Program-made: the position numbers and the translations under genes | The notes under the pieces: generated by a model | What the model was told of the DNA's origin: nothing | Seen by the model: only the letters and a program-made list of their open reading frames with translations | Database searches by the model: none | Assembly (NCBI RefSeq): GCF_016632335.1 | Contig: NZ_JAEPBG010000004.1 | Location: 248,001 to 312,000 of the forward strand | DNA length: 64,000 nucleotides | Source of the DNA: Noviherbaspirillum pedocola | GTDB lineage: Bacteria > Pseudomonadota > Gammaproteobacteria > Burkholderiales > Burkholderiaceae_D | Direction of reading: 5' to 3' | In this document: positions 35,254 to 52,616 of the stretch, piece after piece | How positions within the stretch are numbered: position 1 is the first letter of the stretch | How the letters are laid out: each line of letters opens with the position of its first letter

Positions 35254-35270
35254 TGCAAGACCTATGCCAA
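35254..35270 (-). promoter_or_regulatory. Sigma-54-type (-24/-12) promoter of the polar-amino-acid operon
   Basis: Read leftward, the sequence is TTGGCATAGGTCTTGCA. It keeps the invariant GG and GC with exactly ten bases between (GG-CATAGGTCTT-GC) and matches the consensus TTGGCACG-N4-TTGCA at all but two positions. The start would be near 35243, leaving a leader of about 40 bases before the ATG at 35202. Sigma-54 promoters need an activator such as NtrC, so nitrogen control is expected. Confidence 0.72.
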
Positions 35271-35465
35271 GACGAAATGCGCGATACGTGCCGCCCCGGA
35301 CCGCACATGCTGCGCAAACGCCTCACGGCTGCGCCTGCGCGCGGGCATTTGCGGACCATGCGCCATTCCGAGGTGCGCGCAGTGCGCGGAGACAGTGCAA
35401 GGTCCGGGAGGCGGCGAGCCGGATTGATCAGCCATCCTGGTTGCAAACCATGAAGCCAATGGCAA

Positions 35466-35506
35466 GCGCCGACGCATTGCGTCCGGCATGCGCATGCCAT
35501 CGGCGC
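35466..35506. repeat. Nested inverted repeats with a 14-base palindrome
   Basis: GCGCCGA at 35466-35472 pairs with TCGGCGC at 35500-35506. Inside are GACGC/GCGTC (35471-35475 and 35479-35483) and the perfect palindrome GGCATGCGCATGCC (35485-35498). On the leftward strand it lies 116-156 bases after the dioxygenase stop and about 200 bases before the sigma-54-type promoter. It could be a transcription end structure or a binding region for a regulator. Confidence 0.5.
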
Positions 35507-35621
35507 TTCATTGCTGCGGGGAGAGGAGAGGGGTCTGCAGGCCAGCGGCGCCGGAGAGGAAGCGCCGCAGTCAGGGATGGTCACGGCATGCCTTGCGCTT
35601 CGGCGCCGCGGCCCGCTGCGT

Positions 35622-36611: not shown

Positions 36612-36688
36612 GGTTGAACCGTCCGTATGTTCATGGCAAGGAAAGAAAGTCGGCCGCGCTGCTACGGCAGGCCTGCGAGTGCGCATCG

Positions 36689-37402: not shown

Positions 37403-37460
37403 GCTTGTCCTCTCTGTGCTACGACGCCGTCCGGCACCAGTGCCATGGTCGATGACTTGC

Positions 37461-38645
37461 CTATTTCGTCATCCCGACCGGAAGGATGCGGTTGTCGATG
37501 AACTGGGCCCACACATAGTCGTTCTCGTTGAGCGCGTCATGGTTGGACGCGTTGAACGGCTTCACATAGGTCTTGATCACGCCTTCATACCGATCGATGT
37601 TGTCCAGGCCTTCGCGGATCGCCTCATGCTCGGCCGAGCCCTTTGCGGCGATGGCCTTGGCCACCAGATGCATGCCGTCATAGGCGTTTGCCACGCCGAT
37701 CGCGGCCGGGATGTCGTCCGGACCCTTGATGGCGGGATACTTTGCCTTCAGTTCCGCGAGCAGCTTTTCGCCCTGCGGCGACTGCTTGCCGAAGAAACTG
37801 TAGGTCTGCACGAAGTGGACGTTCTTCGCGCTCGGGCCCGCGAGCTCGGTGAAACGCCCGGTGGCCGGGCCCCAGTGCGATACGACCGGCACCTTCCAGC
37901 CCATGCGGTCCAGGGACTTCACCACCTGCGCCGCAGGTCCGACATTGCCGACGAGGTACAAGGTATCCGCGCCGGCGGCCTTCAGCCGGGTCAGCTGCGG
38001 CACCACATCGACGTCGCTGCCTTCGAACTTCTCGATGCCCGCGGGCTTCATGCCCTTTTCGGCAAGCGCGGCGGTCAAGCCTTTCTCATTCGACTCGCCC
38101 CACGGATTGTTCACCAGGATCAGACCGGCTTTGGACGCATGAAAGTTCTTTTGCGCGTATTGCACCATCGCCTTGTCCACCAGCTCGTCCACCGCCGACA
38201 CGCGGAACGCGTAGTTCGGGTTGGCGCCGTTCCTGGTGATGCCGGTGCCTGCGGCCCATGGCCCCATGAACGGGGTCTTGGCCTGATTCATCAACGGGAC
38301 GATCGCCATCGATACCGGCGTATCCAGGCCGCCGAAGACGACCGCGACCTTTTCCTTGTAGATGAGTTCGCGCGCGGCGATCACTCCCTTGGCCGGATTG
38401 CTCTCGTCATCGCGGCTCACCAGCTCGAGCTTGCGTCCGCCCAGGAGGCCGCCGCTGGCATTGATGTCATCGATCGCCACGGCCAATCCGCGCGCGATCG
38501 CTTCGCCGCCCTGGGCGGATTGCCCCGACAGGGCAGTGACGAGGCCGATACGGATCGGTTCGGCGGCATGCGCGGCCGGCAGCACGGCGGTGGCGACGAG
38601 AGCCGCGCAGGAAGCGATGAAGGTGCGACGCGGTAGAAAGCTCAT
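37461..38645 (-). CDS. Liv-type ABC transporter substrate-binding protein
   Basis: A 394-residue LivK-like protein. The start at 38645 has GAGGAG upstream, and the signal contains a twin-arginine-like MSFLPRRTFIASCAALVATA; export as a Sec or Tat substrate is possible. The mature part starts EPIRIGLVTALSGQSAQGGE, has FGGLDTPVSMAIVPLMNQAK and WGPATGRFTELAGPSAKN. It is encoded downstream of LivH and the triple fusion, giving a complete importer. The ligand is unknown. Confidence 0.92.
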   Translation of the reverse strand: MSFLPRRTFIASCAALVATAVLPAAHAAEPIRIGLVTALSGQSAQGGEAIARGLAVAIDDINASGGLLGGRKLELVSRDDESNPAKGVIAARELIYKEKVAVVFGGLDTPVSMAIVPLMNQAKTPFMGPWAAGTGITRNGANPNYAFRVSAVDELVDKAMVQYAQKNFHASKAGLILVNNPWGESNEKGLTAALAEKGMKPAGIEKFEGSDVDVVPQLTRLKAAGADTLYLVGNVGPAAQVVKSLDRMGWKVPVVSHWGPATGRFTELAGPSAKNVHFVQTYSFFGKQSPQGEKLLAELKAKYPAIKGPDDIPAAIGVANAYDGMHLVAKAIAAKGSAEHEAIREGLDNIDRYEGVIKTYVKPFNASNHDALNENDYVWAQFIDNRILPVGMTK

Positions 38646-38777
38646 GATGACTCCTCGGGCAAGTGGAAAGGAAAAAAGGGACTGCCGTCGCTTCATGGGA
38701 GCGCCATGGCATCGCGACAGAATCGTGCAGGCATGCACATGCACCGCACCGGAAACGACAGTGCCGGAGCATGGAGT

Positions 38778-41348
38778 TCAGTGGCCGCCAAGATAGGCCT
38801 CGGCAAGCCGGTTGTTCGCGGCGATTTCCATCGCCGTTCCCTGCGCCGCGACGCGGCCGCCTTCAAGCACATAGGCACGGTCGGCGAGCGCCAGCGCCAG
38901 GGCAGCCATCTGGTCGACCAGCAGGATCGTCATGTTCTCCGCACGCAGGCGGTCCAGCGCGGCAAACAGTTCGGCGATCACCTTGGGCGCCAGGCCGAGC
39001 GAGGGTTCGTCGAGCAGCATCGCCTTCGGGCGCGACATCAGGCCGCGCGCCACCGCGAGCATTTGCTGTTCGCCGCCGGACAGCAGCCCGGCACGCTGGT
39101 GCAGTCTTTCGCGCAGGCGTGGAAAGCGCTCCAGCATTTCCTCGACCCGGCTTTCCCTGTCCTGCGGGTACAGGAAGGCGCCGAGGCGCAGGTTGTCGAG
39201 CACCGACAACTCCTTGAACACCTGCCGGCCTTCGGGCACCAGCACCAGGCCGCGCGCGACGATGGCATCCGGCGAGAGGCCGGAGATATCCGCGCCATCG
39301 AAATGCATACCGCCCTTGACCGGGCGGTGCAGCCCGGCGAGCGAGCGCATCAATGTCGATTTGCCCGCGCCATTGGCTCCCAGCAGCGCCACCAGTTCGC
39401 CCTGCCTGACCTGCAGGCTGACTTCCTCGAGCACCGGAGCGGCACCGTAGCCGGTGACCAGCTTGCCCACGCCCAGCAATTCCCTGCCGATCGCGGCCGT
39501 GCCCGTTCGCGAGCGCAGCGCGCCGACGCCCATAGCCGGATCGCCGAGATAAGCCTGGCGCACCGATGCATCGTTCTGTATCTCGGACGGGCTCCCCGCA
39601 GCCAGGCGCTGGCCGGCGTCGAGCACCACGATGTGCTCGCAGACTTCCATGACCAGCGGCATATCGTGTTCGACCACCACCACGCTGACGCCCGCGGCCG
39701 CGACGCGGCGCAATAGCGCGGACAGGCTGCGCTTGTCTTCGGCCGACAGGCCCGCCGCGGGTTCGTCGAGCAGCAGCACGTCGGGATCGGTGGCCAGCGC
39801 GCGCGCGATTTCCACCAGGCGCTTGTCGACATGGGCCAGATCTGCCGCCGGCAAATCCGGCGCGCCGCGATAGCCGCAGAACTGCAGCAGCGCGCGGCTG
39901 CGTGCGCGCACGTGCGGCGCGTGAAAGCGCACGGCATCGAGCAGATGTCCTAGGCGGCCTCGGCACATTGCCAGCGCGACGTTGTCTTCCACGCTCAGGC
40001 TGCTGAACAGCTCGGAGGTCTGGTAGGTACGGGCAATGCCGCGCCGCGCGATGTCGACCGCGCTCCTTCCCTGCAGCGCTTCATCGCCGAGATGAAAGCC
40101 GCCGCCGCTGGGCTGGTAATAGCCGCTGAGCATGTTGAGAACGGTAGTCTTGCCCGCGCCATTGGGCCCGATCAGCCCATTGACGGCGGCGGGTCGCATG
40201 GCGAAGCTGACCTCGCTGGCCGCCCGCACGCCGCCGAACACCATGCTGAGCGATTCGGCGCGCAATGCGCGACGCTGGCGCGGCGCAAGAACCGCTTCCG
40301 GGTTCGCCATGTTCAGCGTGTCGCCGGGTCGCGCCCCCGCCTGCGCATGACGGCGCAGGCGACGGTGCAGCGCGCCGACGATGCCTTGCGGCGCAATCCA
40401 CAGCACGACCAGCAGCAGCGCGCCGAATACCAGCAGCCGGTACTGCGCGAGTCCGGCCAGCAGTTCGGGCAGGATGCCGACGATGACGGCGCCCGCCAGC
40501 GGTCCCGCGACCGTGCCGGCGCCGCCTATCACGACGACCAGCACGAAGAGTATGGATTGCATGAAGCCGAAACTGTCCGGCGTCACGAAGCCCGACAGCG
40601 GCGCGAACAGTCCGCCCGCCAGGCCGGCGAGCAAGGCCGATACCGCGAAGGCAGTGGTCTTGATCACCAGCGGATTGAGGCCGATCGACTCGGATGCGGT
40701 TTCGCTGTCCATCACCGCGCGCATGGCCGCGCCCCAGGTGCCGCGGGACAAGCGCGTGAACCCGGCGACGAGCACCATCACGGCAGCCACCGCCAGCAGC
40801 GCGATGCCCTGTTCGGTGGACAGGCCGCCGAAGGAAGGCGCCGGTATGCCCATGATGCCGTTCTGTCCGCCGGTCACGCTGCGCATCTCGATGATCGCGT
40901 GCTGCACGATGAAGCTGAACGCGATGGTGATCATCGCCAGGTAAGGGCCCTTGACCCGCAGCGCCGGCAGCGCAAGCAGCATGCCCAGCGCACCCGCCAC
41001 CAGGGCCGCGATCGGCCAGGCCAGCCAGAAGCTCCAGCCCAGCGTGGCCTCAAGTATCGCGACCACATACGCGCCCACCGCGTAGAAGCCGACATGCCCG
41101 AACGAAACCTGGCCGGTAAGGCCGAACAGCACGTTCAGGCCAATGCCGACGATGGCGGTCAGCATGACGTTGGCCAGCACGAAGACGTAGTAGCTGTTCA
41201 GCGTGAGCGCCAGTCCGAAGGCGGCGGCGAAGGCGATCGCCCAGAGCACGAGCTCGGCCGGCGTGCCCAGGCCGAGCAGCCGCCCCCTGGGCGCCCGGGT
41301 ATCGGCGCGCGTGTCGCGTGCGGCAAGCAGGATGGACGAGGGCTTCAT
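38778..41348 (-). CDS. LivM-LivG-LivF triple fusion (permease plus two ATPases)
   Basis: An 856-residue protein from the ATG at 41348 (AGAGGTGAAAAAGGT upstream), overlapping the LivH stop (ATGA). Residues 1-325 are a LivM permease (FGLTGQVSFGHVGFYAVGAY). Residues 360-610 are a LivG-like ATPase with Walker A GPNGAGKTTVLNM (394-406) and Walker B VLLLDEPAAGLS. Its signature segment reads DLAHVDKRLVEIARALA, lacking the normal LSGGQ-type Gly. Residues 620-856 are a LivF-like ATPase with Walker A GANGAGKSTLMRS (657-669) and an intact LSGGEQQMLAVARGLM. The open frame extends to 42053, but that part overlaps LivH in another frame and is spurious. Bifunctional Liv fusions occur; this triple is unusual. 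Confidence 0.9.
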   Translation of the reverse strand: MKPSSILLAARDTRADTRAPRGRLLGLGTPAELVLWAIAFAAAFGLALTLNSYYVFVLANVMLTAIVGIGLNVLFGLTGQVSFGHVGFYAVGAYVVAILEATLGWSFWLAWPIAALVAGALGMLLALPALRVKGPYLAMITIAFSFIVQHAIIEMRSVTGGQNGIMGIPAPSFGGLSTEQGIALLAVAAVMVLVAGFTRLSRGTWGAAMRAVMDSETASESIGLNPLVIKTTAFAVSALLAGLAGGLFAPLSGFVTPDSFGFMQSILFVLVVVIGGAGTVAGPLAGAVIVGILPELLAGLAQYRLLVFGALLLVVLWIAPQGIVGALHRRLRRHAQAGARPGDTLNMANPEAVLAPRQRRALRAESLSMVFGGVRAASEVSFAMRPAAVNGLIGPNGAGKTTVLNMLSGYYQPSGGGFHLGDEALQGRSAVDIARRGIARTYQTSELFSSLSVEDNVALAMCRGRLGHLLDAVRFHAPHVRARSRALLQFCGYRGAPDLPAADLAHVDKRLVEIARALATDPDVLLLDEPAAGLSAEDKRSLSALLRRVAAAGVSVVVVEHDMPLVMEVCEHIVVLDAGQRLAAGSPSEIQNDASVRQAYLGDPAMGVGALRSRTGTAAIGRELLGVGKLVTGYGAAPVLEEVSLQVRQGELVALLGANGAGKSTLMRSLAGLHRPVKGGMHFDGADISGLSPDAIVARGLVLVPEGRQVFKELSVLDNLRLGAFLYPQDRESRVEEMLERFPRLRERLHQRAGLLSGGEQQMLAVARGLMSRPKAMLLDEPSLGLAPKVIAELFAALDRLRAENMTILLVDQMAALALALADRAYVLEGGRVAAQGTAMEIAANNRLAEAYLGGH

Positions 41349-42220
41349 ACCTTTTTCACCTCTTTTCTGCCGAACAGGCCGTTGGGACGCAGCGCAAGCA
41401 TGACGATCACCAGCGCAAAGCTGATGATCTGGGTGTAGCCGGAACCCAGCGTAGCCGTCACCAGCGCCTCGACGATGCCGAACAGCAGTCCGGCCAGCAT
41501 CACGCCCCATGCGCTGCCGATGCCGCCGAGGATCGCCGCTGAAAACGCCTTGAGGCCGAACAGCGTGCCCATGTCGGCATTCACATTGAACAGCGGCGCG
41601 ATCAGCACGCCGGCCACGCCCGCCAGCAGCGTCGACAGCGCGAACGCCGCGGTGACGACGCGCCTGATCGGTATGCCCATCAATTGCGCGGCCGCGCGGT
41701 TCTGCACCACGGCCAGCATCGCGACGCCCCAGCGGGTGCGGCGCGCCACCGTGCTCAGAAGAGCGGCCAGCGCCAGGCCGAGCAGCGGGATCAGCAGATG
41801 CAGGGGATAGATGCCCAGGCCGAGTCCGCCGATATCGACAGGCGTATTCGCCAGCGGCGAGGGCAGGCTGCGCGGCTCCTTGCCGAAGGTGTGCAGCACC
41901 AGGTTGTCCAGCACGATGCCCAGCGCCACGGTGGCGATCAGCCAGGCATTCGAGCCGCGGCTGGCGAAGGGACGCACCGCCAGCGCCTCGACCAGCGCCC
42001 CATATGCCGCGCACAGCGCCAACGCGATCGGGATCGCCAGCCACATCGGCCATCCCAGCGTTTGCGCAAAGCTGTAGCAGAGCACCGCGCCAAGCATCAT
42101 GGAGCTGCCCTGCGCGAAATTGACGGTGCCGGAAACCGCATAGGTGATGTAGAAGCCGAGGGCCATCAGGCCATACATGCTTCCCAGGCTGAAACCGCTG
42201 ATGAGGGCCGATAACAGCAT
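41345..42220 (-). CDS. Liv-type ABC transporter permease (LivH)
   Basis: A 291-residue membrane protein starting MLLSALISGFSLGSMYGLMA, with GLMALGFYITYAVSGTVNFA, the LivH hallmark, and AFSAAILGGIGSAWGVMLAG. It is the first gene of the leftward operon and has a 104-base leader from the predicted sigma-54-type start near 42324. It pairs with the LivM half of the fusion. AGGAGCTGATTC precedes the ATG. Confidence 0.92.
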   Translation of the reverse strand: MLLSALISGFSLGSMYGLMALGFYITYAVSGTVNFAQGSSMMLGAVLCYSFAQTLGWPMWLAIPIALALCAAYGALVEALAVRPFASRGSNAWLIATVALGIVLDNLVLHTFGKEPRSLPSPLANTPVDIGGLGLGIYPLHLLIPLLGLALAALLSTVARRTRWGVAMLAVVQNRAAAQLMGIPIRRVVTAAFALSTLLAGVAGVLIAPLFNVNADMGTLFGLKAFSAAILGGIGSAWGVMLAGLLFGIVEALVTATLGSGYTQIISFALVIVMLALRPNGLFGRKEVKKV

Positions 42221-42507: not shown

Positions 42508-43461
42508 ATGAAGAACAACGACTTCGGACCGCTTCCCACGCACGACCGCTTTCCCTATTCCGCGATCGGCGCGCGGCCGCGCTACCGCTGGCCCAACGGC
42601 GCCGGGCTGGCTGTCTACATCGGCTTCAATATCGAGCACTTCGCTTTCGGCGAAGGCATGGGCGCCAGGCTGGGCCCGGCGTGCCCGGAACCGGATGTGC
42701 TGAATTACTCCTGGCGCGAATACGGCAATCGCGTTGGCGCCTGGCGCTGCCTCGAGATGTTCGATGCGCTCGGCCTGCCTGCCGGCGTGCTGGCCAACAC
42801 CGCGCTCTACGATCACTGCCCCGAGCTGCTCGAGGCCTGCGTGCGGCGCGGCGACGAGCTCATCGGCCACGGGCATACCAATGCGATGCAGCAGGGCACG
42901 CTGCCCGAGCCCGATGAGCGTCTGTTGCTCGAGCATTGCCGCGAGCGCATGCGCGCGTCGAGCGGCAAGGCGCCGGCCGGATGGCTGTCGCCATGGATCT
43001 CGGAGAGCCGGGTCACACCCGATCTCCTTGCCGAGACCGGCTATCGATATACGCTGAACTGGGCCCACGACGATCAGCCGATACGCATGCGCACCCGCAG
43101 CGGCAAGACCCTCTGGTCGATTCCGTATCCGCAGGAAATCAACGACATCCCGATGATCATCGCCCGGCAAATGGATGGACGGGACTTCGCCGCGATGATC
43201 ACGGACCACTTCGATGAAATGCTGGAGCAGTCCCGTCGCGAACCGCTGGTGATGGGAATCGCGCTGCATCCCTACCTGGTCGGCCAGCCCTATCGCCTGC
43301 GCCATCTGCGGCGCGCGCTCGAGCATGTGTGCCGCGCGCGCGACCGCGGCGACATCTGGTTCACCACGCCGGGAGCCGTTTGCGATCATGTCGATGCGCT
43401 CGGTCTTGCGGAAGCCGGCAGCGACACCGCGCATCGCGTCCTGATGAAAGGCGCCGCATGA
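42508..43461 (+). CDS. Polysaccharide deacetylase-family amidohydrolase (PuuE-like)
   Basis: A 317-residue NodB-homology protein. The N-terminal FPYSAIGARPRYRWPNGAGL, NYSWREYGNRVGAWRCLEMF, SNT-like VLANTALYDHCPELLEAC and GDELIGHGHTNAMQQGTLPE match the PuuE/allantoinase-like branch that hydrolyses cyclic ureides or amides rather than polysaccharide. The ATG at 42508 is the best start; 42451 is possible, and the frame further upstream overlaps the predicted promoter. It is first in the rightward operon, 70 bases before the GntR gene. Confidence 0.82.
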   Translation: MKNNDFGPLPTHDRFPYSAIGARPRYRWPNGAGLAVYIGFNIEHFAFGEGMGARLGPACPEPDVLNYSWREYGNRVGAWRCLEMFDALGLPAGVLANTALYDHCPELLEACVRRGDELIGHGHTNAMQQGTLPEPDERLLLEHCRERMRASSGKAPAGWLSPWISESRVTPDLLAETGYRYTLNWAHDDQPIRMRTRSGKTLWSIPYPQEINDIPMIIARQMDGRDFAAMITDHFDEMLEQSRREPLVMGIALHPYLVGQPYRLRHLRRALEHVCRARDRGDIWFTTPGAVCDHVDALGLAEAGSDTAHRVLMKGAA

Positions 43462-43531
43462 CTTCCCTGGCGCCCCAGCAAACGATGCAGCCGGATTCCC
43501 GGTGTCCGGATGAACCGGCGATGACAAGACG

Positions 43532-44266
43532 ATGAAAAGACACCCCAGGCTCGTAGCCGCCCCTGATGCCGAACCTGCGTCCACCGAAAGCGCGGACGCT
43601 GCCGCGCAGCGGGTTTACCAGACCATCTTCGACAGCGTGATGAGCCAGCGCCTGTTGCCCGGAACGAAGCTGCCGGAAGCGGCGCTGTGCGAGCTGTTCC
43701 ATGTCGGGCGGACCACCGTGCAGAAGGCGCTGCAGCGACTGGCGCATGAATACATCGTCGAGCTGCGCCCGAACCGCGGCGCGATGGTGGCCATGCCCAC
43801 GCCGCAGGAAATGCGCGAGATCTTCGAGGCGCGCCAGGCTCTGGAGGCGGCCATTCTGGGGCTGGCGGCGCGCAACGCCACCGACGAGGACCTGGCGCGG
43901 CTGCATGTCCACCTGGAACGCGAGCATGCGGTCATGCATACCTGGAGGCAGGCCGAATGGGCGCGGCTGGCGAGCGACTTCCACCTGCGCGTCGCCGAGC
44001 TGTCCCATAACGCCATCCTGCAGCGCTACCTGGCCGAGTTGCTGTCTCGCTGCTCGCTGATCGTGGCCTTGCATGAGCCCGGCGGACATGCTTCCTGCGA
44101 GCATGAGGAACATGCCGGCATCGTTGCCTGCCTGGAGCGGCGCGACGCCGAGGGCGCGGTGCGCGCGATGCAGGCGCACCTGGCGGTGCTGGAGCAGCGC
44201 ATACAGCTCGACAGTGAAGGTTCGGGCAAGAACCTGGCGCGCATGCTCGGCTTCGACGAGCGATGA
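43532..44266 (+). CDS. GntR-family regulator, FCD subfamily
   Basis: A 244-residue FadR-type GntR regulator. The winged helix DNA-binding part has VYQTIFDSVMSQRLLPGTKL and LFHVGRTTVQKALQRLAHEY. The FCD effector domain shows metal-ligand-like residues: SDFHLRVAELSHNAILQRYL, HEEHAGIVACLERRDAEGAV and AMQAHLAVLEQRI. FCD members sense carboxylates or ring-cleavage products. Its stop overlaps the next start (ATGA). Confidence 0.9.
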   Translation: MKRHPRLVAAPDAEPASTESADAAAQRVYQTIFDSVMSQRLLPGTKLPEAALCELFHVGRTTVQKALQRLAHEYIVELRPNRGAMVAMPTPQEMREIFEARQALEAAILGLAARNATDEDLARLHVHLEREHAVMHTWRQAEWARLASDFHLRVAELSHNAILQRYLAELLSRCSLIVALHEPGGHASCEHEEHAGIVACLERRDAEGAVRAMQAHLAVLEQRIQLDSEGSGKNLARMLGFDER

Positions 44267-45192
44267 CCATGCTGCATCCGCCGCGGCTTTACGTGTATCT
44301 CGATGCGGTGGCCCGCGCCGGGTCGATCCGCAAGGCAGCCGAACAGCTGCATGTGGCCTCGACGGCGCTGAACCGCAGAATCCTCGAGGCCGAGCAGGCG
44401 CTGGGCACGCCCCTGTTCGAGAGATTGCCGCGCGGCGTGCGGCTGACAGCGGCCGGCGAAGTCATGCTTTCCTTCGTACGGCGCAGCCTGGCGGAGCTGG
44501 AATCCGCCACCAGCCATATCGAGCAGCTGCGCGGCCTGATGCGCGGCACGGTGCGGCTGGCCTGCGCCGAATCGGTGGGCACGGATATCGTGCCGCGCAT
44601 CGTCGCGCTCTGGCAGGCCCGGCATCCGGGCGTGCAATTCCGCCTGCAGGTGGGCGGCACCCAGAGCCTGGTGGCGGCCCTGCTCGACGACGAGGTCGAG
44701 CTCGTGGCCGCGCATGACCCGCCGCCGCATCCGCAACTCGAGGTGCTGGCCGACATGGCGCAGCCGCTGCATGTGATGATGCGTCCCGATCATCCGCTCG
44801 CCGCGCGCGGCAGCCTCAAGCTGGCGGATTGCCAGGCCTATCCGGTCGCCCTTGGCGACGCCTCGTTCGGCAGCCGGCGCCTGCTGGATGCGCATGTGGC
44901 GCGCTCGCGCCTGCGGCTGCAGGTGGTGCTTGAGTCCGGTTCGGTGGAAACCATCAAGGCCTACGCGCGCCATGGCGGCGCGCTGTGCTTTCAGTTCGAA
45001 GCCGGCACGCGGCGCGACTGCGCGCTGGGCGAGCTGGCGAGCGTGCCGCTGAGCGACGCCGCGCTGGCCGGCAGCCGGCTGCAACTGGCGGTGCGGGCCG
45101 GGCGCAGCCTGCCGATCGCGGCGATGAAGTTTGCCGAAGCCTTGCAAGCCGAGTTGTTCCGGGTTCAGCGGCATTCCGACCTGCCCGCATGA
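44263..45192 (+). CDS. LysR-family regulator, ring-cleavage cluster
   Basis: A 309-residue LysR regulator. The HTH region is RLYVYLDAVARAGSIRKAAE and ASTALNRRILEAEQALGTPL, followed by FERLPRGVRLTAAGEVMLS. The effector domain begins near residue 90 (GTVRLACAESVGTDIVPRIV). It lies immediately before the ring-opening amidohydrolase, the same relation as AtzR to the cyanurate genes atzDEF. It is co-transcribed rather than divergent, as its start overlaps GntR. Confidence 0.9.
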   Translation: MTMLHPPRLYVYLDAVARAGSIRKAAEQLHVASTALNRRILEAEQALGTPLFERLPRGVRLTAAGEVMLSFVRRSLAELESATSHIEQLRGLMRGTVRLACAESVGTDIVPRIVALWQARHPGVQFRLQVGGTQSLVAALLDDEVELVAAHDPPPHPQLEVLADMAQPLHVMMRPDHPLAARGSLKLADCQAYPVALGDASFGSRRLLDAHVARSRLRLQVVLESGSVETIKAYARHGGALCFQFEAGTRRDCALGELASVPLSDAALAGSRLQLAVRAGRSLPIAAMKFAEALQAELFRVQRHSDLPA

Positions 45193-45268
45193 GCGCACAC
45201 AATTTGCGCTCGCTGCGATCGAAATTCGGCGCTACCTGCGCGCACTCGGCATGCCGGAAGATGGGCAC

Positions 45269-46384
45269 ATGAGAACCGATGTCCACCTCCTTTCCATGGC
45301 CCATCCGGGCGACGTCTCCGCCCTGGATGCCCTTATCCGCAGCGGCGCGATTTGCGCGGCACGGATCGTCGCCGTCATCGGCAAGACCGAAGGCAATGGC
45401 GGCGTCAACGATTTCACGCGCGCCTATTTCACCCAGTCGCTGATGCACCTGCTTGCACGGCATCTCGGGGACGAGCCGGCGCGCTTGGCCGCGCGCATCC
45501 CGTGCATCCTGTCCGGCGGCACCGAGGGCGTGCTGAGCCCGCACTATGTCGTCTTCTGCCGCGATCAAGCGACGGGCGATGACGATGGCGAAGGCGGCGC
45601 GCTCGCGCTCGGGCTGGCCTTCAGCGAAGCCACCCCGACCGAGCGCATCGGTCGCGCCAGCCATGCACGCCAGGTCGCCGACGCGGTGCGCGCGGCCATG
45701 CGCGATGCCGGCATCGAACGCACGAGCGATGTGCATTTCGTGCAGGTCAAGACGCCGTGCATCACGGTTGCGCGCGCCGAAGAAGCGCGTGCGCGCGGCG
45801 TCGAGCCCGTCACCGGCGACCCGAACCGCGCGATGGCCTATGCCAGGGCCGCCGGCGCGCTCGGCGTGGCGCTCGCGCTCGGGGAAATCGACGATGACGT
45901 GCTGAGCGACGCCGCGCTGCTGCGCGACATGCATCTCCATTCGGATCGCGCCAGCGTGTCTTCCGGCGTCGAGATCGCCGGCAATGAAGTCATCGTGCTG
46001 GGCAACAGTCCGCGCTGCAACGGCCCTTATCGGATCGCGCACCGGCCGATGCGCGACGCGCTCGATATCCATGCCGTGGTGGATGTGCTTGCCGAGCTTG
46101 GCCTGCAGGCGTCGCCGCAGATCGATGGCGCAAGCCTGCAACGCATTGCCGGCGTGTTCGTCAAGTGCGAGCCGCAGCGCCAGGGCCGGGTGCGCGCTTC
46201 GCGCCACACCATGCTGGACGACACCGACATCAATGCCCAGCGCCATGTGCGCGGCGCGGTCGGCGGGCTGGTGGCAGGCGTGATCGGCGATGGCCGCATC
46301 TTCGTCTCGGGCGGCGCCGAGCACCAGGGACCGGACGGCGGCGGCCTGGTCGCCGTCATCGCCAATACGGCACGAGACGACTGA
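45269..46384 (+). CDS. Ring-opening amidohydrolase (cyanuric acid hydrolase/barbiturase family)
   Basis: A 371-residue protein of the AtzD/barbiturase family, a unique fold with threefold internal symmetry and Ser-Lys pairs. Candidate catalytic residues are Lys39 (VIGKTEGNGGVNDFT), Ser82 (LSGGTEGVLSPH), Lys161 (HFVQVKTP), Ser231 or 232 (VSSGVEIAG), Lys299 (GVFVKCEP) and Ser347 (FVSGGAEHQGPDGGG). The family hydrolyses the C-N bond of cyanuric acid or barbituric acid; others have unknown substrates. The ATG at 45269 has GGAAG at 11 bases; longer starts are weaker. It is followed at once by the amidase (TGATG). Confidence 0.9.
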   Translation: MRTDVHLLSMAHPGDVSALDALIRSGAICAARIVAVIGKTEGNGGVNDFTRAYFTQSLMHLLARHLGDEPARLAARIPCILSGGTEGVLSPHYVVFCRDQATGDDDGEGGALALGLAFSEATPTERIGRASHARQVADAVRAAMRDAGIERTSDVHFVQVKTPCITVARAEEARARGVEPVTGDPNRAMAYARAAGALGVALALGEIDDDVLSDAALLRDMHLHSDRASVSSGVEIAGNEVIVLGNSPRCNGPYRIAHRPMRDALDIHAVVDVLAELGLQASPQIDGASLQRIAGVFVKCEPQRQGRVRASRHTMLDDTDINAQRHVRGAVGGLVAGVIGDGRIFVSGGAEHQGPDGGGLVAVIANTARDD

Positions 46385-47871
46385 TGCGAGCCGAGCCGTG
46401 GATGCTGTCAGCCTCCGCGCTTGCGCGGGCTTATCGCGACGGCGACTTGTCGCCGGTGCAGGCGCTGCAATCGGTGCTTGCGCGCATGGATGCGGTCAAT
46501 CCGGCGATCAATGCTGTCGTCACCTGCGACCGCGAGGCCGCGCTCGCGGCTGCCGCGCGCAGCCAGGCGCGCTGGCGCGAGGGCAGGGCGCTGTCCGCGC
46601 TGGACGGCGTTCCCTTTACCGTGAAGGACAATCTCGCCACCGCCGGCATGCGCTCGACCTTTGGCAGCAGGCTGTACGCCGACCATGTCCCCGACAGCGA
46701 CGAGCTGCCGGTGGCGCGCCTGCTGGGCGCGGGAGCGGTGTTGCTGGGCAAGACCAATGTGCCGGAGCTGGCGCTGCACGGCTATACCGACAATGCCCTG
46801 TTCGGCGTCACCCGCAACCCCTGGAATACCGCGCTCACGCCCGGCGGCTCCAGCGGCGGCGCGGCCGCGGCCGTGGCTGCCGGCATCGCGCCGCTGGCGC
46901 TGGCCACCGACGGCGGCGGATCGATCCGCCGCCCGTGCGCGCATACCGGCTGCGTCGGCCTGAAACCCGGCACGGGCCGCGTGCCGCGCAGCGGCGGCTT
47001 TCCGGTGTTCCTGCACGATTTCGAAGTGGCCGGCCCGATCGCGCGTTGCGTCGACGACCTGATCCTTGCAATGCACGCCTTGTCGCCATCCTCGTCGCAA
47101 GATGCCCGCTCGGCGGTCTTTGCCGACATGCCGTTCTCGGCCGCGCCGCATGTGAGCGCGGCGCGCATCGCGTTGATCGATGCGCTCGGTGATGCGCCAG
47201 TGGATGCCGAAAGCGCGCAGGCGGCAGAGGAGGCGCTGCGCTCGCTTGCCGCCCTGGGACACCGGCCGGTGTCATTGCCGCCGGCGCAGCGCGCAGCCCT
47301 GGTGCGCGCGATCACCGCGATCAACGAGGATGCCTGGCCCGTGCTCAGCACGAGCGGCCTGGCATGGCTGATGGCGACGCATTTCCCAGGGCGCGAGTCC
47401 GCGCTGTCGCCGCCGCTGGCAGTCCTGCTGGAGCAGGGCCGCGCGCGCAGCGGGGTCGACATGATGCGCGCCCTGGAGGCGATACGCCATCTGCGCCAGA
47501 CGCTGGCGCAAGTGTTGCACGACATCGATTGCCTGTTGCTGCCGTCGGCGGCAAGCCAGCCGTGGCAGGCGGCCGAACCGCATCCGCCTGACATTGCCGG
47601 CCAGCCGGTCGGTCCGCGCGGTCACGCGATTTTCACCGCCTTCGTCAATGCCGCCGGCCTGCCAGCCGTGGCGCTGCCCGTCGGCATGAGCACGGGCGGC
47701 ATGCCGCTGGGCGTGCAGCTGGTCGGCCGTCACGGCGCCGACGGCTGGCTCTGCGCACTTGGCCGCCAGCTCGAAGGGACGCATCAGTTTGAACCGCTGT
47801 GGCGCCGCCATGCGACGCACGAAGCCGGTGCAGGCGCACCTGGCATGCAATCCGCTAGAGAGAACGCATGA
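46384..47871 (+). CDS. Amidase-signature hydrolase (AtzE/ureidomalonase-like)
   Basis: A 495-residue amidase with catalytic Lys81 (FTVKDNLATAG), cis-Ser156 (PGGSSGGAAAAVAAG) and nucleophile Ser180 (TDGGGSIRRPCAHTG). It starts on the overlapping TGATG after the ring-opener. In known pathways this family acts just after the AtzD/barbiturase step: AtzE deaminates 1-carboxybiuret, and ureidomalonase cleaves ureidomalonate to urea and malonate. AtzE needs the small subunit AtzG (DUF4089, about 60 residues); no such gene lies beside it, so a ureidomalonase-type single subunit or an unknown amidase is more likely. Confidence 0.9.
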   Translation: MRAEPWMLSASALARAYRDGDLSPVQALQSVLARMDAVNPAINAVVTCDREAALAAAARSQARWREGRALSALDGVPFTVKDNLATAGMRSTFGSRLYADHVPDSDELPVARLLGAGAVLLGKTNVPELALHGYTDNALFGVTRNPWNTALTPGGSSGGAAAAVAAGIAPLALATDGGGSIRRPCAHTGCVGLKPGTGRVPRSGGFPVFLHDFEVAGPIARCVDDLILAMHALSPSSSQDARSAVFADMPFSAAPHVSAARIALIDALGDAPVDAESAQAAEEALRSLAALGHRPVSLPPAQRAALVRAITAINEDAWPVLSTSGLAWLMATHFPGRESALSPPLAVLLEQGRARSGVDMMRALEAIRHLRQTLAQVLHDIDCLLLPSAASQPWQAAEPHPPDIAGQPVGPRGHAIFTAFVNAAGLPAVALPVGMSTGGMPLGVQLVGRHGADGWLCALGRQLEGTHQFEPLWRRHATHEAGAGAPGMQSARENA

Positions 47872-49112
47872 ACATGACTTCCGCTACTTCCCCTTCCTCA
47901 TTCGCTGCACGTCCGCTGCGCATCGTCATCGTCGGGGCCGGCGTGGCCGGCTGCATCGTCGCGCGCCTTCTGGCGGGACGCAGCGATGTGGAAGTCATCT
48001 GCCTCGAGCGCGTCGCGCGCGACGATCACAGCGAGGCCGGCACCGGCCTGAACATCGGGCCCAACGCGATCAAGCTGCTGCGCGCGCGCGATCCGGCGCT
48101 GGCTGATGCCATCGCTGCCGCGAGCTGGCCCTGGAAGACCTGGCGCACGTCGCTGACCGATGGCACGGAACTGTTCTCCCTGCCTCTAGCCGAAGTCGCC
48201 GATAACGATGGCGTGCGCATACGCTGGTCCGAGCTGTATCGGGTGCTGCGCGTGGCTGCCGGCGATGCGGTCCGCTATGGCGTGGAGATCACCGACATCG
48301 GGCGCGGCGTTGACGGCCGCTGCCGCCTGCGCTATGAAGCCGATGGGCAGACCCAGCAGCTCGACGACATCGACTTGCTCATTGGCGCCGACGGCCGCTA
48401 TTCCGCGACGCGTCGCGCGCTGTCGGGCGCGCCGGCGATGCGCCAGGTCGGCGTGGCGATCTTCCGCCTGCTGGTGCCGGACAGCGCGGGCGGACTCATC
48501 GACGATTACGAGCAGTGGTTCAACGGCGCGCACCGGCTGCTGGCGTTCAGGGTGCCTCCCGGCCATGTCTACATCGCCGGCACCTTTCCCTTGCGTCCCG
48601 ACCACGAGATCGGCGCGCACGACAAGTCGGCCGATGCATTGCGCCGCTATTACCTGCCGCCGAACGCCGCGCCGAGCGCGCAGGCGCGCTGGCTGACCGA
48701 AACCCTGTGCGCCAATGTCGAGCAAATCCACTGGGCGCGCCTGCAGGAAACCGCGGTCAGTTACTGCGACGGCGCCGCGCCACTGCTCTACCTTGGCGAC
48801 GCCGCGCACGGCATGGTGCCGACCCTGGGGCAGGGCGCGACCCAGGCGATCGAGGATGGCTGCGTGGCCGGCGCGCTGATCGCCGCAAGGCTCGCGGCGG
48901 GCAGCCGCGATATCGGCGAGTGGCTGCGCGCCTTCGAAACGCTACGGGCCGAGCGCATCCGTTTCGTGATGGATTTTTCGCTGGAAGCCAGCGACACCTT
49001 GTTCGCAGGCGCCGATCCGGTCGCAGGCGCGCTGAAAAAGATGGAGCCGCCGTTCCGCGCCAAGCTCGCCCGGCTGTATCGCGATGTCACGCCGCAGGGA
49101 GCAGGGGCATGA
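47868..49112 (+). CDS. FAD-dependent aromatic-type monooxygenase
   Basis: A 414-residue group A flavin monooxygenase. The FAD-binding motif is RIVIVGAGVAGCIVARLLAG, the DG-type motif DLLIGADGRYSATRRAL, and GDAAHGMVPTLGQGATQAIE. Family members hydroxylate aromatic or heteroaromatic rings; HpxO, an FAD urate hydroxylase of this class, acts in purine breakdown. Its ATG overlaps the amidase stop, so it likely supplies a hydroxylated ring for the hydrolases. The substrate is unknown. Confidence 0.9.
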   Translation: MNMTSATSPSSFAARPLRIVIVGAGVAGCIVARLLAGRSDVEVICLERVARDDHSEAGTGLNIGPNAIKLLRARDPALADAIAAASWPWKTWRTSLTDGTELFSLPLAEVADNDGVRIRWSELYRVLRVAAGDAVRYGVEITDIGRGVDGRCRLRYEADGQTQQLDDIDLLIGADGRYSATRRALSGAPAMRQVGVAIFRLLVPDSAGGLIDDYEQWFNGAHRLLAFRVPPGHVYIAGTFPLRPDHEIGAHDKSADALRRYYLPPNAAPSAQARWLTETLCANVEQIHWARLQETAVSYCDGAAPLLYLGDAAHGMVPTLGQGATQAIEDGCVAGALIAARLAAGSRDIGEWLRAFETLRAERIRFVMDFSLEASDTLFAGADPVAGALKKMEPPFRAKLARLYRDVTPQGAGA

Positions 49113-49609
49113 GCGGCGCCGCCATCCATGGCCTGTTTCATGTCGCGATCAAGACCGCGGACCTGGAAGCGACGCGCCGCTTCTACATCGACGTGCTTGG
49201 CCTGGTCGAAGTGCCCAGGCCCGACTTCGGCTATCCCGGCGCATGGCTGGCCTGCCCACACCCCGGCGGCGGCGCGATCGTGCACATCTATGCCGGCGGC
49301 CCGGCGCTCGGCACTGAAGGCCAGGCGCCGCAGGGCAGCGCCGCGATCGACCATCTGTCGCTGTCGTGCAGCGGCTTTGCGCAGTATCGCGAGCGCTTCG
49401 CCGCGCATGGCCTGGACTGGCGCGAGTTCCTGGTGCCCGGCACCAGCCTGTGGCAACTGTTCGTCTACGACCCGAGCGGCGTGCAGCTCGAACTGACTTT
49501 CGAAGGCCGCGCCGAACCCGGAGATCCGCCTGACATGTCGCCGTCTCGGGCCTATGTCGCCGGCTCCAGCTTCTTCGATCGGAACACCTATCCCCTGTTA
49601 TCAGCCTGA
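49109..49609 (+). CDS. VOC-family (glyoxalase/bleomycin-resistance/dioxygenase) protein
   Basis: A 166-residue single-module VOC protein with metal-ligand positions His in GLFHVAIKTADLEATRRFYI, His in AAIDHLSLSC and Glu in VQLELTFEGR. It overlaps the monooxygenase stop by four bases (ATGA). Such proteins can be isomerases, lyases or dioxygenases. In this cluster it might rearrange or cleave a ring-opened product. Confidence 0.85.
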   Translation: MSGAAIHGLFHVAIKTADLEATRRFYIDVLGLVEVPRPDFGYPGAWLACPHPGGGAIVHIYAGGPALGTEGQAPQGSAAIDHLSLSCSGFAQYRERFAAHGLDWREFLVPGTSLWQLFVYDPSGVQLELTFEGRAEPGDPPDMSPSRAYVAGSSFFDRNTYPLLSA

Positions 49610-49619
49610 AGGATTGCCC

Positions 49620-50591
49620 ATGAAAATCTCCACTCTGTTCCGCTACGCCTTCAGCCTCGCCGCCGGCCTTGCCGCGATCTCGATCGCGCATGCGGACGAC
49701 AAGGTGCGCGTCGGCGTATTCGCGTCCAGTTCGGCGCTTCCCTATTTCGTCGGCCTGGAGCGTGGCTACTTCAAGGAAGCCGGCATCGCTGTCGAAACGG
49801 TGACGCTGGCATCGGCGCCGCTGATCGTGCAATCGCTGGTTACCGGGGACATCGATGCCGCTTCCAACCTGGTGACGCTGGAAGGCGCGAACATCAGCCA
49901 GCGCCGCCCCAACACGCTGACCTACATCTCGCTCAACGGCCAGAATGCGCAGTACATCACGGAACAATTCGTGGTCAAGGCCGGCTCTGCCGCCAAGAGC
50001 CTGAAGGACCTGAAAGGCGCAAAACTGTTCTCGGCGCCAGGACCGGCCAATATCGGCACCGCGAAGGCGGTGCTCAAGGCGGCGGGACTGGAAGAGAACC
50101 GGGATTACACGATCCAGGAGCAGCAATTGTCGGTGCACCTGGGCGCGCTGCAGGCCGGCACCTTCGATGGCGGCTATACCCTCGAACCGGTGGCAAGCAC
50201 CATGATCAAGCAGGGCGTGGCGCGCAGGCTCGAGGCTGGGTTGATTTCCACTTACCTGCTCGGCAACGCCTCGGCGCAGGCCTATGCCGCCGGCGGCGCG
50301 CTGTCCAACAAGCTCCTGGCCGAGCGGCCCGACGTAGCGGCCCGATTCGCGAAGGCCTGGGCCAAATCGGTGGCCGCGGCCAATACCGACCCGAGCGCGC
50401 GCGAACTGCTGGCCAAGGACATGAACGTGCCGGCGCAGCTTGCCTCGACCGTGCCGCTGGCCAATTTCGTCATGGTCAGGGACATGTCCGCATCGCAGAA
50501 GGCCGACTTCCAGAAATTCGTCGATATCGGCGTTGGCCTGGGCGTGGTCAAGGGCGCCATCGACACCGCTACCATCATCAAGGGGATGTGA
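49620..50591 (+). CDS. SsuA/TauA-type ABC substrate-binding protein
   Basis: A 323-residue NMT1/SsuA-like protein. The signal peptide MKISTLFRYAFSLAAGLAAI ends near AHADD. The mature part has SSALPYFVGLERGYFKEAGI, ITLEG-like NLVTLEGANISQRRP and GLEENRDYTIQEQQLSVHL. This family binds taurine, sulfonates, nitrate, bicarbonate, pyrimidines or thiamine precursors. It starts 10 bases after the VOC gene and is followed by its ATPase and permease. A heterocycle or ureide ligand is inferred from context. Confidence 0.9.
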   Translation: MKISTLFRYAFSLAAGLAAISIAHADDKVRVGVFASSSALPYFVGLERGYFKEAGIAVETVTLASAPLIVQSLVTGDIDAASNLVTLEGANISQRRPNTLTYISLNGQNAQYITEQFVVKAGSAAKSLKDLKGAKLFSAPGPANIGTAKAVLKAAGLEENRDYTIQEQQLSVHLGALQAGTFDGGYTLEPVASTMIKQGVARRLEAGLISTYLLGNASAQAYAAGGALSNKLLAERPDVAARFAKAWAKSVAAANTDPSARELLAKDMNVPAQLASTVPLANFVMVRDMSASQKADFQKFVDIGVGLGVVKGAIDTATIIKGM

Positions 50592-51454
50592 TGCGATTGC
50601 TGAAATCGATGCCGCAGCCACAGCCGGATCCGCGTGAACAGAACGGCGCCTGGCGCGGCCAGCAGGAGGGCAGGGACCTCGGACACCGCTGGTATGCGCC
50701 GGGCACGCACATCACGATCCGCGGACTGTGCAAGCGCTTCGGCGCACACACGCTGTACGAGGACTTCGACCTCGATATCCCGAAGGGCAAACTGATCTCG
50801 ATCTTCGGTCCCAACGGTTGCGGCAAGAGCACGCTGATCAACATGATCGCCGGCATACTTCCGCATGACCGCGGGCAGATCCTGTTCGATGGCAAGGACG
50901 TGCATGAAACCCGCATCGGCTATGTCTTCCAGAATTACCGCGAAGCTGTCTTTCCCTGGATGCGCGCCATCGACAACATCCGCTATCCGCTCAAATACCT
51001 GAAGCTGTCGAAGGCGGAGAAGGAGAATCGCATCGATCAGCTGGTGCAGAGCTTCGATGTGAAGATCGACCTGAACAAGTATCCGTACCAGATGTCGGGC
51101 GGGCAGCAGCAGATGGTGTCCATCATGCGCTCGCTGGTGATCGAGCCGGAAGTGCTGTTCCTGGACGAGCCGTTTTCCGCACTGGACTACGAGATGACGC
51201 AATTCCTGCGCGAGAAGCTGCAGAAGGTCTTCATCGAGCGGCCGGTGACGACGCTCCTGGTGTCGCATGACCTGGATGAAGCGGTGTACCTGGCCGACTA
51301 TGTGCTGCTGCTGTCGCGCAATCCGACCCGGATTGCCGACTTCGTTCCCTTCGACGCGCCGCGGCCGCGCAATGCGGAAACGACGCTGACGACGGACTTC
51401 ATCCGCGTCAAGGGTCACAGCCTCGAGATATTCCAGCGCGAGGTGCGGAAATGA
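50591..51454 (+). CDS. ABC transporter ATP-binding protein, SsuB/TauB type
   Basis: A 287-residue ATPase, read from the ATG of TGATG at 50591 (a GTG at 50588 is also possible). Walker A GPNGCGKSTLINMIAGIL, signature MSGGQQQMVSIMRSLV, Walker B VLFLDEPFSALDYE and LVSHDLDEAVYLADYVLLLS are present. The N-terminal 40 residues form an extra, charged extension. It serves the adjacent binding protein and permease. Confidence 0.9.
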   Translation: MRLLKSMPQPQPDPREQNGAWRGQQEGRDLGHRWYAPGTHITIRGLCKRFGAHTLYEDFDLDIPKGKLISIFGPNGCGKSTLINMIAGILPHDRGQILFDGKDVHETRIGYVFQNYREAVFPWMRAIDNIRYPLKYLKLSKAEKENRIDQLVQSFDVKIDLNKYPYQMSGGQQQMVSIMRSLVIEPEVLFLDEPFSALDYEMTQFLREKLQKVFIERPVTTLLVSHDLDEAVYLADYVLLLSRNPTRIADFVPFDAPRPRNAETTLTTDFIRVKGHSLEIFQREVRK

Positions 51455-52218
51455 CCGGCGGCCGCGCGCTCGCCGCGCGCTTCAAGCCCTTGCTCGGCCT
51501 GTGCCTGATGGTGGCCTTGTGGGAATTCGCTTTCCGGATGCGCCTGATCGACCCGGTGCTGCTGCCTTCGCCGGTGCAGGCGCTTTCTGCCTTCTGGCAC
51601 GGGCTGCGCGAAGGCACGCTGTGGGTCGACTTCGAGCGCACCATCGTGCGCACCGCCAGCTCCTTCGGCATCGCGCTGGTGCTGGCCGTGCCGCTGGGTA
51701 TCCTGCTGGGCTCGTCCGACAAGGTCTACCAGGCGCTGGAATTCCCGATTGATTTTTTCCGGTCCACGCCGGCATCGGCAATGTTCCCGCTGTTCCTGAT
51801 CCTGTTCGGCAGCGGCGAAGGCACGAAGATCGCGGTTGCCGCCTTCGGCGCGGCGCTGGCGATTCTGTTCAATGTGGCCTATGGCGTGATGCATGCCCGC
51901 AAGCAGCGCCAGCTCGCGGCGCGCGTCATGGGCGCCTCGCGCCTGAAGGTGCTGACCGACGTGACCCTGTGGGAATGCCTGCCGCAGACTTTCGTGGGCA
52001 TGCGCTCCGGCGTTTCCCTGGCGCTGGTCATCGTCATCGTGGCCGAGATGTTCATCGGTTCCACCGACGGGCTGGGACAGCGCATCCTGAAGTCGCAAAT
52101 GGTGTTCGACATGCCGGACATGTATTCATCCATCTTCGCCGCCGGCGCACTCGGCTATGTCCTCAATCTGCTGTTCATCGTGGTCGAGCGGCGCTTCGTG
52201 CACTGGGGTGGCAAATAA
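51451..52218 (+). CDS. ABC transporter permease, SsuC/TauC type
   Basis: A 255-residue inner-membrane protein starting on the ATGA overlap. It has about six membrane spans, PSPVQALSAFWHGLREGTLW near the N-terminus and SSDKVYQALEFPIDFFRSTP and the EAA-loop AAARVMGASRLKVLTDVTLW-like motif. It completes the third importer of the nitrogen island. Confidence 0.9.
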   Translation: MTGGRALAARFKPLLGLCLMVALWEFAFRMRLIDPVLLPSPVQALSAFWHGLREGTLWVDFERTIVRTASSFGIALVLAVPLGILLGSSDKVYQALEFPIDFFRSTPASAMFPLFLILFGSGEGTKIAVAAFGAALAILFNVAYGVMHARKQRQLAARVMGASRLKVLTDVTLWECLPQTFVGMRSGVSLALVIVIVAEMFIGSTDGLGQRILKSQMVFDMPDMYSSIFAAGALGYVLNLLFIVVERRFVHWGGK

Positions 52219-52238
52219 CAAATGAGGAGTTTTCGCTA

Positions 52239-52616
52239 ATGGTGATCAATGAACCGCAGGTGCTGGCCGAACTGGAGAAGGTCTTCGCCGAGTATGAGCA
52301 GGCGCTGGTCGGGAACGACATCGCCACGCTGGACCGCCTGTTCTGGAATTCGCCGCACACGCTGCGCTACGGCGCCGGTGAAAACCTGTACGGGTTCGAC
52401 GAGATACAGGCGTTTCGCAATGCCAGGCCGGCGCACAATCTCAATCGCACCGTCATCCGCACTGCGCTGACCAGCTTTGGCAAGGACTACGGCGTGACCA
52501 ACATCGAGTTCAAGCGCGCCGGCAGCGAGCGCACCGGGCGCCAATCCCAGACCTGGGTGCGTTTCGAGGATGGCTGGAAGGTCGTCGCTGCGCATGTCAG
52601 CCTGATGACGAGCTGA
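52239..52616 (+). CDS. AtzH/HpxZ-like DUF3225 protein
   Basis: A 125-residue SnoaL-fold protein: VINEPQVLAELEKVFAEYEQ, LDRLFWNSPHTLRYGAGENL and QSQTWVRFEDGWKVVAAHVS. It is close in form to HpxZ (oxalurate catabolism) and AtzH, which in Pseudomonas strain ADP hydrolyses 1,3-dicarboxyurea on the way to allophanate. GAGGAG lies nine bases before the ATG. It is the last gene of the rightward series and supports a ureide or N-carboxyurea intermediate in the pathway. Confidence 0.85.
   Translation: MVINEPQVLAELEKVFAEYEQALVGNDIATLDRLFWNSPHTLRYGAGENLYGFDEIQAFRNARPAHNLNRTVIRTALTSFGKDYGVTNIEFKRAGSERTGRQSQTWVRFEDGWKVVAAHVSLMTS

Follow-up and report, generated by a model that had tools for sequence, protein, structure and literature searches.

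The window analysed here is a stretch of 64,000 nucleotides of Noviherbaspirillum pedocola DNA (G000:C34:248001-312000; G, C and L denote our genomes, contigs and loci). At 42508-52616 of the window there are eleven genes, all on the plus strand, including a ring-opening amidohydrolase of the AtzD/barbiturase family (hereafter RING) and a flavin adenine dinucleotide (FAD)-dependent monooxygenase. RING belongs to a separate branch of its family that has Gln at AtzD position 321, and across genomes this branch is accompanied by the FAD gene. Judged from gene content and relatives, we lean slightly towards the view that the operon serves uptake and use of a natural N-heterocycle, other than a simple s-triazine, as a source of nitrogen and perhaps carbon. 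The AtzD label is a basis for inferring degradation of cyanurate and triazines. Our results suggest that a large branch of proteins passing the cut-off of this label, as the window protein does, has some other function; Gln at AtzD 321 and the FAD gene are markers to tell this branch apart. Relatives of the operon occur in Bradyrhizobium, Variovorax, Hydrogenophaga, Noviherbaspirillum and freshwater bacteria, an indication that these organisms have a route for a natural N-heterocycle.

Pairing of the ring opener with the FAD monooxygenase

A genome collection was scanned with RING and the best 80 of 190 relatives were used, each with up to 10 kb of sequence either side of the RING gene. Genes in these loci are heuristic calls from a codon-usage script, clustered by blastp; they are computed, not curated. 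According to the residue at AtzD 321, 54 loci are Gln-type (the window included, L001 left out), five of them holding a Glu-type RING too, and 27 have the Thr-type only. It is important to note that the loci were found via RING and that the counts are influenced by groups of related genomes (many Bradyrhizobium, six Pseudacidovorax). The FAD cluster is present in 52 of the 54 Gln-type loci as compared to none of the 27 Thr-type loci. The distance from the FAD gene to a RING is at most 3 kb in 49 of the 52 cases, and the two genes share a strand in 50. For the other genes of the operon the corresponding numbers in Gln-type and Thr-type loci are 42/54 and 0/27 (VOC protein), 38/54 and 1/27 (amidase), 39/54 and 0/27 (periplasmic binding protein) and 21/54 and 0/27 (AtzH-like protein). 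The permease is found in 36/54 Gln-type loci, and ATPase homologues detected by tblastn adjoin the binding protein and permease genes in many loci. Two isochorismatase clusters are distributed differently: one is found in 0/54 Gln-type and 10/27 Thr-type loci, the other in 3/54 and 0/27, respectively. BiuH, an enzyme named in PMC5806882, could have its counterpart here. Biuret hydrolase of this kind is isochorismatase-like, and the cluster of the Thr-type loci would fit such a partner of genuine cyanurate hydrolases.

The pairing was also seen in two less biased checks, the first a scan of 399 genomes of the order, N. pedocola included. PF09663 matches are present in 26 genomes. The FAD model, at E ≤ 1e-80 and with no more than four first-look candidates scored in each genome, matched nine, all of them among the 26; the p value for this co-occurrence is 5e-12. 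A RING is found no further than about 1.6 kb from each of the five best FAD places. Of these places, three are L039, L041 and L048 found again, one is the window and one is new (G152:C86). Two further FAD places are about 9–10 kb from a divergent RING. When, as the second check, the FAD gene was searched for in 25 genomes, 23 of which had been picked for a Thr-type RING and two of which were Verrucomicrobiota with a Gln-type one, four matches were obtained, all among the 23, and in all four genomes a previously unseen Gln-type RING adjoins the FAD gene. At least 11 genomes hold both Thr-type and Gln-type RINGs (G003, G005, G007, G011, G012, G424, G426, G429 and G436 and, by record name, L039 with L058 and L046 with L077). 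The presence of both types in one genome argues for different tasks. Mirror-tree correlations with RING (r 0.81 for FAD, 0.75 for VOC, 0.83 for the amidase, 0.77 for the binding protein and 0.95 for LysR) do not single out the FAD enzyme. A search of 72,556 plasmid records (E 1e-20) gave nothing that matched the FAD enzyme.

An earlier sequence-only reading of this DNA had proposed a gene cluster for N-heterocycles, uncharacterised so far and centred on a ring opener of the AtzD/barbiturase family, in whose route the flavin hydroxylase truly takes part. Both of these points are supported; taken as a whole, the interpretation is partly supported.

Residues and phylogeny of the ring opener

RING is 371 amino acids long, matches PF09663 over model positions 2–357 of 358 and is the sole match to this family in its 7.24 Mb genome. 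It scores 483.6 with the NCBIfam cyanuric acid hydrolase model NF052395 (cut-off 360). The three Ser-Lys pairs and three Arg residues (including Arg54/Arg325) of the superfamily are kept, as are all published AtzD catalytic residues. As given in PMC3758960, the cyanuric acid hydrolase signature is Arg195, Thr321, Arg325, Gly345 and Gly346, the barbiturase signature is Asn195, His321, Lys325, Val345 and Ser/Ala346, and the residues that differ mirror the substrate difference at ring position 5. RING has Arg, Gln, Arg, Gly and Gly at these positions. It thus keeps four of the five cyanuric acid hydrolase residues, with Gln at 321, and lacks the barbiturase signature.

Gln is present at position 321 in all 53 FAD-linked RING rows (52 distinct genes, L001 being the window gene again). 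Thr321 is found in 27 of 29 rows without FAD link, the two exceptions being Gln-types from Verrucomicrobiota, and in all four solved cyanurate hydrolases. Further substitutions typical of the branch are found close to the catalytic lysines and to Ser344. In the tree, FAD-linked RINGs form a single branch with support 100/100, the two Verrucomicrobiota included. AtzD, TrzD and the two other solved cyanurate hydrolases are outside this branch, i.e. RING does not group with the solved enzymes. The five Glu-type RINGs have a branch of their own on the cyanurate-hydrolase side, and the window RING clusters with those of two Noviherbaspirillum species (79% identity), from which the host would probably belong to the Oxalobacteraceae. 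The NCBI name, cyanuric acid hydrolase, is probably wrong for the Gln-type ring opener.

PF09663-type relatives on plasmids were found in 129 records (67 Rhizobium, 17 Citrobacter, 10 Klebsiella and others). Among the matches listed, none has 60% or higher identity to RING; the 60 listed are 44–48% identical and are annotated mostly as ring-opening amidohydrolase or atzD. The 'atzD' of PMC9456165, a chlorimuron-ethyl gene with a 26 kDa product, was not equated with RING.

Partner enzymes and regulators

The nearest solved chains to the FAD enzyme are 8rqh, tropone 2-monooxygenase (E 4e-16), and 3rp6, a 'flavoprotein monooxygenase' (E 3e-14) that we take to be HpxO. With the HpxO urate hydroxylase model NF033623 the FAD enzyme scores 71 bits (cut-off 500). 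A comparison with the urate-binding residues of HpxO was given no weight, as the Arg has a counterpart in the tropone monooxygenase sequence too. The amidase scores 196 bits with the AtzE model TIGR02715 (cut-off 425.75) and by score would not be AtzE; the intergenic space in the run is too small for an AtzG gene. The AtzH-like protein passes NF033625 (195 against 135). By reading of the alignment, it keeps nine of nine AtzH pocket residues described in PMC6219798, which states that AtzH may turn 1,3-dicarboxyurea into allophanate. Conservation of the pocket makes an N-carboxyl amide (acylurea minus ammonia) a likely intermediate of the route. The roles that had been foreseen for the amidase and the AtzH-like protein, cleavage of a ureide with release of ammonia, are consistent with this pocket and with the frequency of the amidase.

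In the VOC protein H11, H59, H82 and E128 are invariant in 17 of 17 alignment rows, as in VOC metalloenzymes, and are probable metal ligands. Glu321-type RINGs occur in five loci and two Verrucomicrobiota genomes; they abut an amidase in L009, L034, L091 and L092, the last two of these loci being from Verrucomicrobiota. Among 15 picked genomes, six have a VOC orthologue and none of these has a Glu-type RING, while seven of the nine without VOC have one; G006 and G007 have neither. The nominal p value for this exclusion is 0.007, with kinship ignored. We put forward the hypothesis that VOC and the Glu-type RING may be two ways to do one step. A molybdenum (Mo)-hydroxylase of the xanthine dehydrogenase type (CoxL) is present in 18/54 Gln-type loci, at a distance of no more than 3 kb from RING, and in 0/27 Thr-type loci. 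Both the Mo-hydroxylase and the second, Glu321-type ring opener were found in relatives and had no place in the sequence-only reading.

The LysR cluster is present in 24/54 Gln-type loci. In 16 of the 24 it immediately precedes the ring opener gene in the same orientation, and LysR is the probable regulator of the operon. Genes 39–40% identical to GntR are found in six Pseudacidovorax loci.

The PuuE-like gene scores far below the cut-off of the PuuE allantoinase model (Table 1) and also stays below that of Polysacc_deac_1 (21.2 against 23.1 bits). Its matches in PDB are 3cl6, PuuE (E 1e-23), and 3qbu (E 3e-13). Conservation of the FAD, VOC and PuuE-like genes beside RING orthologues had been named beforehand as a test. 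FAD and VOC are kept in 52/54 and 42/54 Gln-type loci, so that the test did not refute the reading, whereas the window-type PuuE-like gene is found in only one of the 54 Gln-type loci, the window itself, and so loses its place as a core member; a second kind of PuuE-like gene is present in 9/54. Homologues 65–70% identical occur in Thr-type RING loci (L047, L049, L070), and others, 48–59% identical, are beside RINGs or within about 10 kb of them (L111, L112 and L130, the last of Gln-type). The gene seems to travel with ring openers generally, outside the FAD-RING core. According to PMC9304392, HxnM of a fungal pathway and a Pseudomonas putida imidase are related to the PuuE-like fold. Given this kinship, it is possible that the gene encodes a cyclic imide hydrolase.

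Possible substrate and route

The best reading of the ring is a natural one of pyrimidine or pyridine type. A nucleobase- or pyridine-like ring is argued for by the Mo-hydroxylase, by the NMT1/THI5, Bmp and YkoE-type (PF09819) transporters and by the purine genes beside L005 and L015. As a first guess, extrapolated from the specificity residues, the substrate of RING could be a C5-oxygenated barbiturate of the 5-hydroxybarbiturate type, because only position 321 of the five changes, and it changes to a longer polar residue. While gene set, pairing of FAD with RING, separate RING branch and conserved catalytic residues come from sequence and comparative genomics, the following route, with its reactions, their order and the substrate, is inferred. 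The compound would be imported via the NMT1/THI5-type ABC transporter and, in some relatives, oxygen would be added to the ring by the Mo-hydroxylase. The flavin monooxygenase would then hydroxylate an electron-rich ring carbon, and the Gln321-type AtzD-fold enzyme, matched to the FAD product, would open the oxidised cyclic ureide or imide by hydrolysis of a C–N bond. A neighbouring intermediate may be processed by the VOC metalloenzyme, elsewhere by the Glu321-type second RING. Finally, the acylurea or amide formed in this way would lose ammonia and CO2 through the amidase and the AtzH-like protein, the latter acting by an AtzH-like decarboxylation. More tentatively, and with the odds somewhat against us, we suggest that many bacteria share an oxidative-hydrolytic route, so far undescribed, by which a natural ring that is nucleobase-like or derived from a vitamin is used, with the Gln321 branch tied to one flavin hydroxylase and one step done by either of two unrelated proteins, VOC or a Glu321-type RING. 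No published account of the RING-FAD module was found in the open-licence literature, searched partly at abstract level.

Genes of carbon metabolism (CaiB CoA-transferase, enoyl-CoA hydratase, MmgE/PrpD, SDR-epimerase, acyl-CoA dehydrogenase) are neighbours in 14/54 loci. These carbon-acid and CoA-ester genes disfavour cyanurate, since cyanurate leaves no carbon skeleton.

There are several observations that do not agree with a dedicated FAD-RING route or with a substrate other than cyanurate. Three of the ten FAD places in the order scan are on contigs without any RING, and in two Verrucomicrobiota genomes with Gln-type RINGs the FAD gene was not found at E 1e-60. In the stretch compared, the amidase cluster is missing from 16/54 and AtzH from 33/54 Gln-type loci. 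L113, L115 and L116 have a sister pair of FAD and VOC genes, and the stretch read there contains no RING. The catalytic residues are all AtzD-like and just one of five specificity positions is changed, so cyanurate activity is possible. The carbon-metabolism genes may be bystanders; an SDR cluster is found in Thr-type loci too (11 loci).

The sister FAD is 47–52% identical to the nearest core FAD; for the sister VOC the identity is 64–65%. Round the pair in L113 (4760-17546) there are genes for a racemase, PuuE, an amidohydrolase, an amidase, UPRTase, two proteins like 5-hydroxyisourate hydrolase (HIUase), OHCU decarboxylase and allantoate amidohydrolase.

Alternative explanations

The module could be a variant of the cyanuric acid operon, in which RING forms 1-carboxybiuret, the amidase acts as AtzE, AtzH gives allophanate and the allophanate hydrolase of the genome ends the route, the FAD enzyme only feeding cyanurate in, for example from a substituted triazine. 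The score above the NF052395 cut-off, the conserved catalytic residues with R195/R325/G345/G346, the conserved AtzH pocket and the allophanate hydrolase at G000:C2 (824 bits) are in line with this, and the window shares with AtzD/TrzD and the atzDGEHF operon the fold family, Ser-Lys pairs, Arg triad and an amidase with an AtzH-like partner. Unlike atzDGEHF, it has a Gln321-branch ring opener, an FAD monooxygenase, a VOC protein and its own ABC importer; there is no room for AtzG, and the amidase falls short of AtzE. In addition, all FAD-linked rows have Gln for Thr321, RING stands on a separate branch, a Thr-type RING is kept as well in the genomes with both types, and no Gln-type locus has the isochorismatase cluster found in 10/27 Thr-type loci (another one is in 3/54). 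Given residue 321, the branch, the extra genes and the carbon-metabolism neighbours, cyanurate appears the less likely substrate and the variant operon unlikely. The idea that the FAD or Mo enzyme converts oxonate or 5-azauracil to cyanurate found no genomic support. An oxidative pyrimidine route would have the Mo-hydroxylase produce barbiturate, RING act as a proteobacterial barbiturase, the amidase as ureidomalonase and the FAD enzyme upstream on a 5-substituted pyrimidine. It would account for the Mo-hydroxylase in a third of Gln-type loci, for the nearby NMT1/THI5, Bmp-type and YkoE-type transporters and for the amidase adjoining RING; barbiturase and ureidomalonase likewise combine a ring opener of the same family with an amidase as the next step. 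The specificity residues of barbiturase are absent from RING, however, and there is no obvious reason why FAD should be tied to it; the barbiturase/ureidomalonase route is not known to include an FAD hydroxylase or AtzH. We regard this explanation as improbable.

The enzyme classes are found together also in the Aspergillus hxn nicotinate pathway (PMC9304392), where ring oxidation by Mo- and FAD enzymes is followed by imide hydrolysis and an amidase. A pyridine route of this logic, with RING opening a pyridine-derived imide, would make use of the PuuE/imidase-like gene of the window and of the 2-oxoglutarate (2OG)-Fe(II) oxygenase and SDR of the divergent block described below. The ring opener of hxn is related to imidases of the PuuE/peptidoglycan-deacetylase type and is not AtzD-fold, so the two systems are not homologous. 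Moreover, the three-Arg site of AtzD type would suit three carbonyls at alternate ring positions, and a pyridine imide would not need acylurea chemistry of AtzH type; we consider this route rather improbable. In a urate-like purine route the FAD enzyme would be a hydroxylase of HpxO/TmuM type and RING would take the place of 5-hydroxyisourate hydrolase. The chain we take to be HpxO is among the nearest solved structures, and urate genes adjoin the module in L005/L015 and the sister pair in L113. Caffeine C-8 oxidation (cdhABC-tmuM; PMC4408171) and the hpx urate operon also resemble the module in having an FAD monooxygenase, a Mo-hydroxylase (in some relatives) and an HpxZ-like protein. Where those have HIU hydrolase and OHCU decarboxylase, the window has RING, VOC and amidase, and by the NF033623 score the FAD enzyme resembles HpxO just distantly. 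Among 22 genomes that carry either the FAD gene or the sister gene, N. pedocola included, 20 have a PuuD-type urate oxidase (PF06181) and 19 OHCU decarboxylase, and L005/L015 have HIUase and uricase too. Urate hydroxylation by the FAD enzyme was rejected as the main explanation on the PuuD and OHCU decarboxylase counts; urate is an unlikely substrate and this route has very little probability. Uricase PF01014 was found in 0/15 genomes.

Canonical urate genes in the two Bradyrhizobium loci L005 and L015 (about 14.8–19.6 kb), namely PuuE, an OHCU decarboxylase-HIUase fusion and uricase, follow a CoxMSL-RING-FAD-VOC-amidase run; these identities, that of uricase included, are family calls on L015 and assigned by cluster on L005.

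Gene layout and neighbouring genes

All eleven genes of the sequence-only reading were found again on the plus strand (Table 1), and their family scores are not explained by chance. The genes from the ring opener to AtzH form a continuous run (45269-52616) in which neighbours overlap by 1–4 bases or stand 10 or 20 bases apart. The description of the series as tightly overlapping holds for these eight genes and for the GntR/LysR pair; it does not hold for PuuE-GntR and LysR-ring opener, separated by 70 and 76 bases, respectively. The family call of the ATPase is from NCBIfam only, and VOC was scored against PF00903 as the longer frame 48515-49609.

Table 1. Genes at 42508-52616 of the window, with family scores.
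Gene product	Coordinates	Strand	Family score
PuuE-like / cyclic-imide-hydrolase-like protein, NodB fold	42508-43461	+	TIGR03212 97 bits (cut-off 424.6)
GntR/FCD regulator	43532-44266	+	PF07729 80 bits, PF00392 60 bits
LysR regulator	44263-45192	+	PF03466 134 bits
Ring-opening amidohydrolase (RING), AtzD/barbiturase family, Gln321 branch	45269-46384	+	PF09663 443 bits
Amidase-signature amidase	46384-47871	+	PF01425 340 bits
FAD-dependent aromatic-type monooxygenase	47868-49112	+	PF01494 50 bits
VOC protein, single-domain	49109-49609	+	PF00903 28.5 bits (cut-off 20.6)
NMT1/THI5/SsuA-type periplasmic binding protein	49620-50591	+	PF09084 55 bits
ABC transporter ATPase	50588-51454	+	best NF040729 (SaoA) 209 bits, below cut-off 360
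ABC transporter permease	51451-52218	+	PF00528 (BPD_transp_1) 67 bits
AtzH/HpxZ-like NTF2-fold protein	52239-52616	+	PF11533 199 bits

A divergent block of genes for N-compounds lies on the minus strand at 30715-42220, outside the coordinates of the operon. It contains FmdA/AmdA formamidase, RidA, a fused ABC permease-ATPase, a family 3 binding protein, a 2OG-Fe(II) oxygenase and an SDR, and further a Liv-type binding protein, a fused LivM-G-F and LivH. Homologues of the 2OG-Fe(II) oxygenase (DIOX_N; 35622-36719, minus strand) adjoin a Thr-type RING in Polaromonas L063/L080 (49–50%), and one is near uricase in L005 (40%). In L040, L054 and L055 a YkoE-type energy-coupling factor (ECF) transporter (PF09819, CbiQ, double ATPase), of a family that we associate with the thiamin pyrimidine, is near Gln- and Glu-type RINGs. 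In three Hydrogenophaga (L013, L025, L028) the cluster is located between guaA-like and guaB-like genes, named from reading the proteins.

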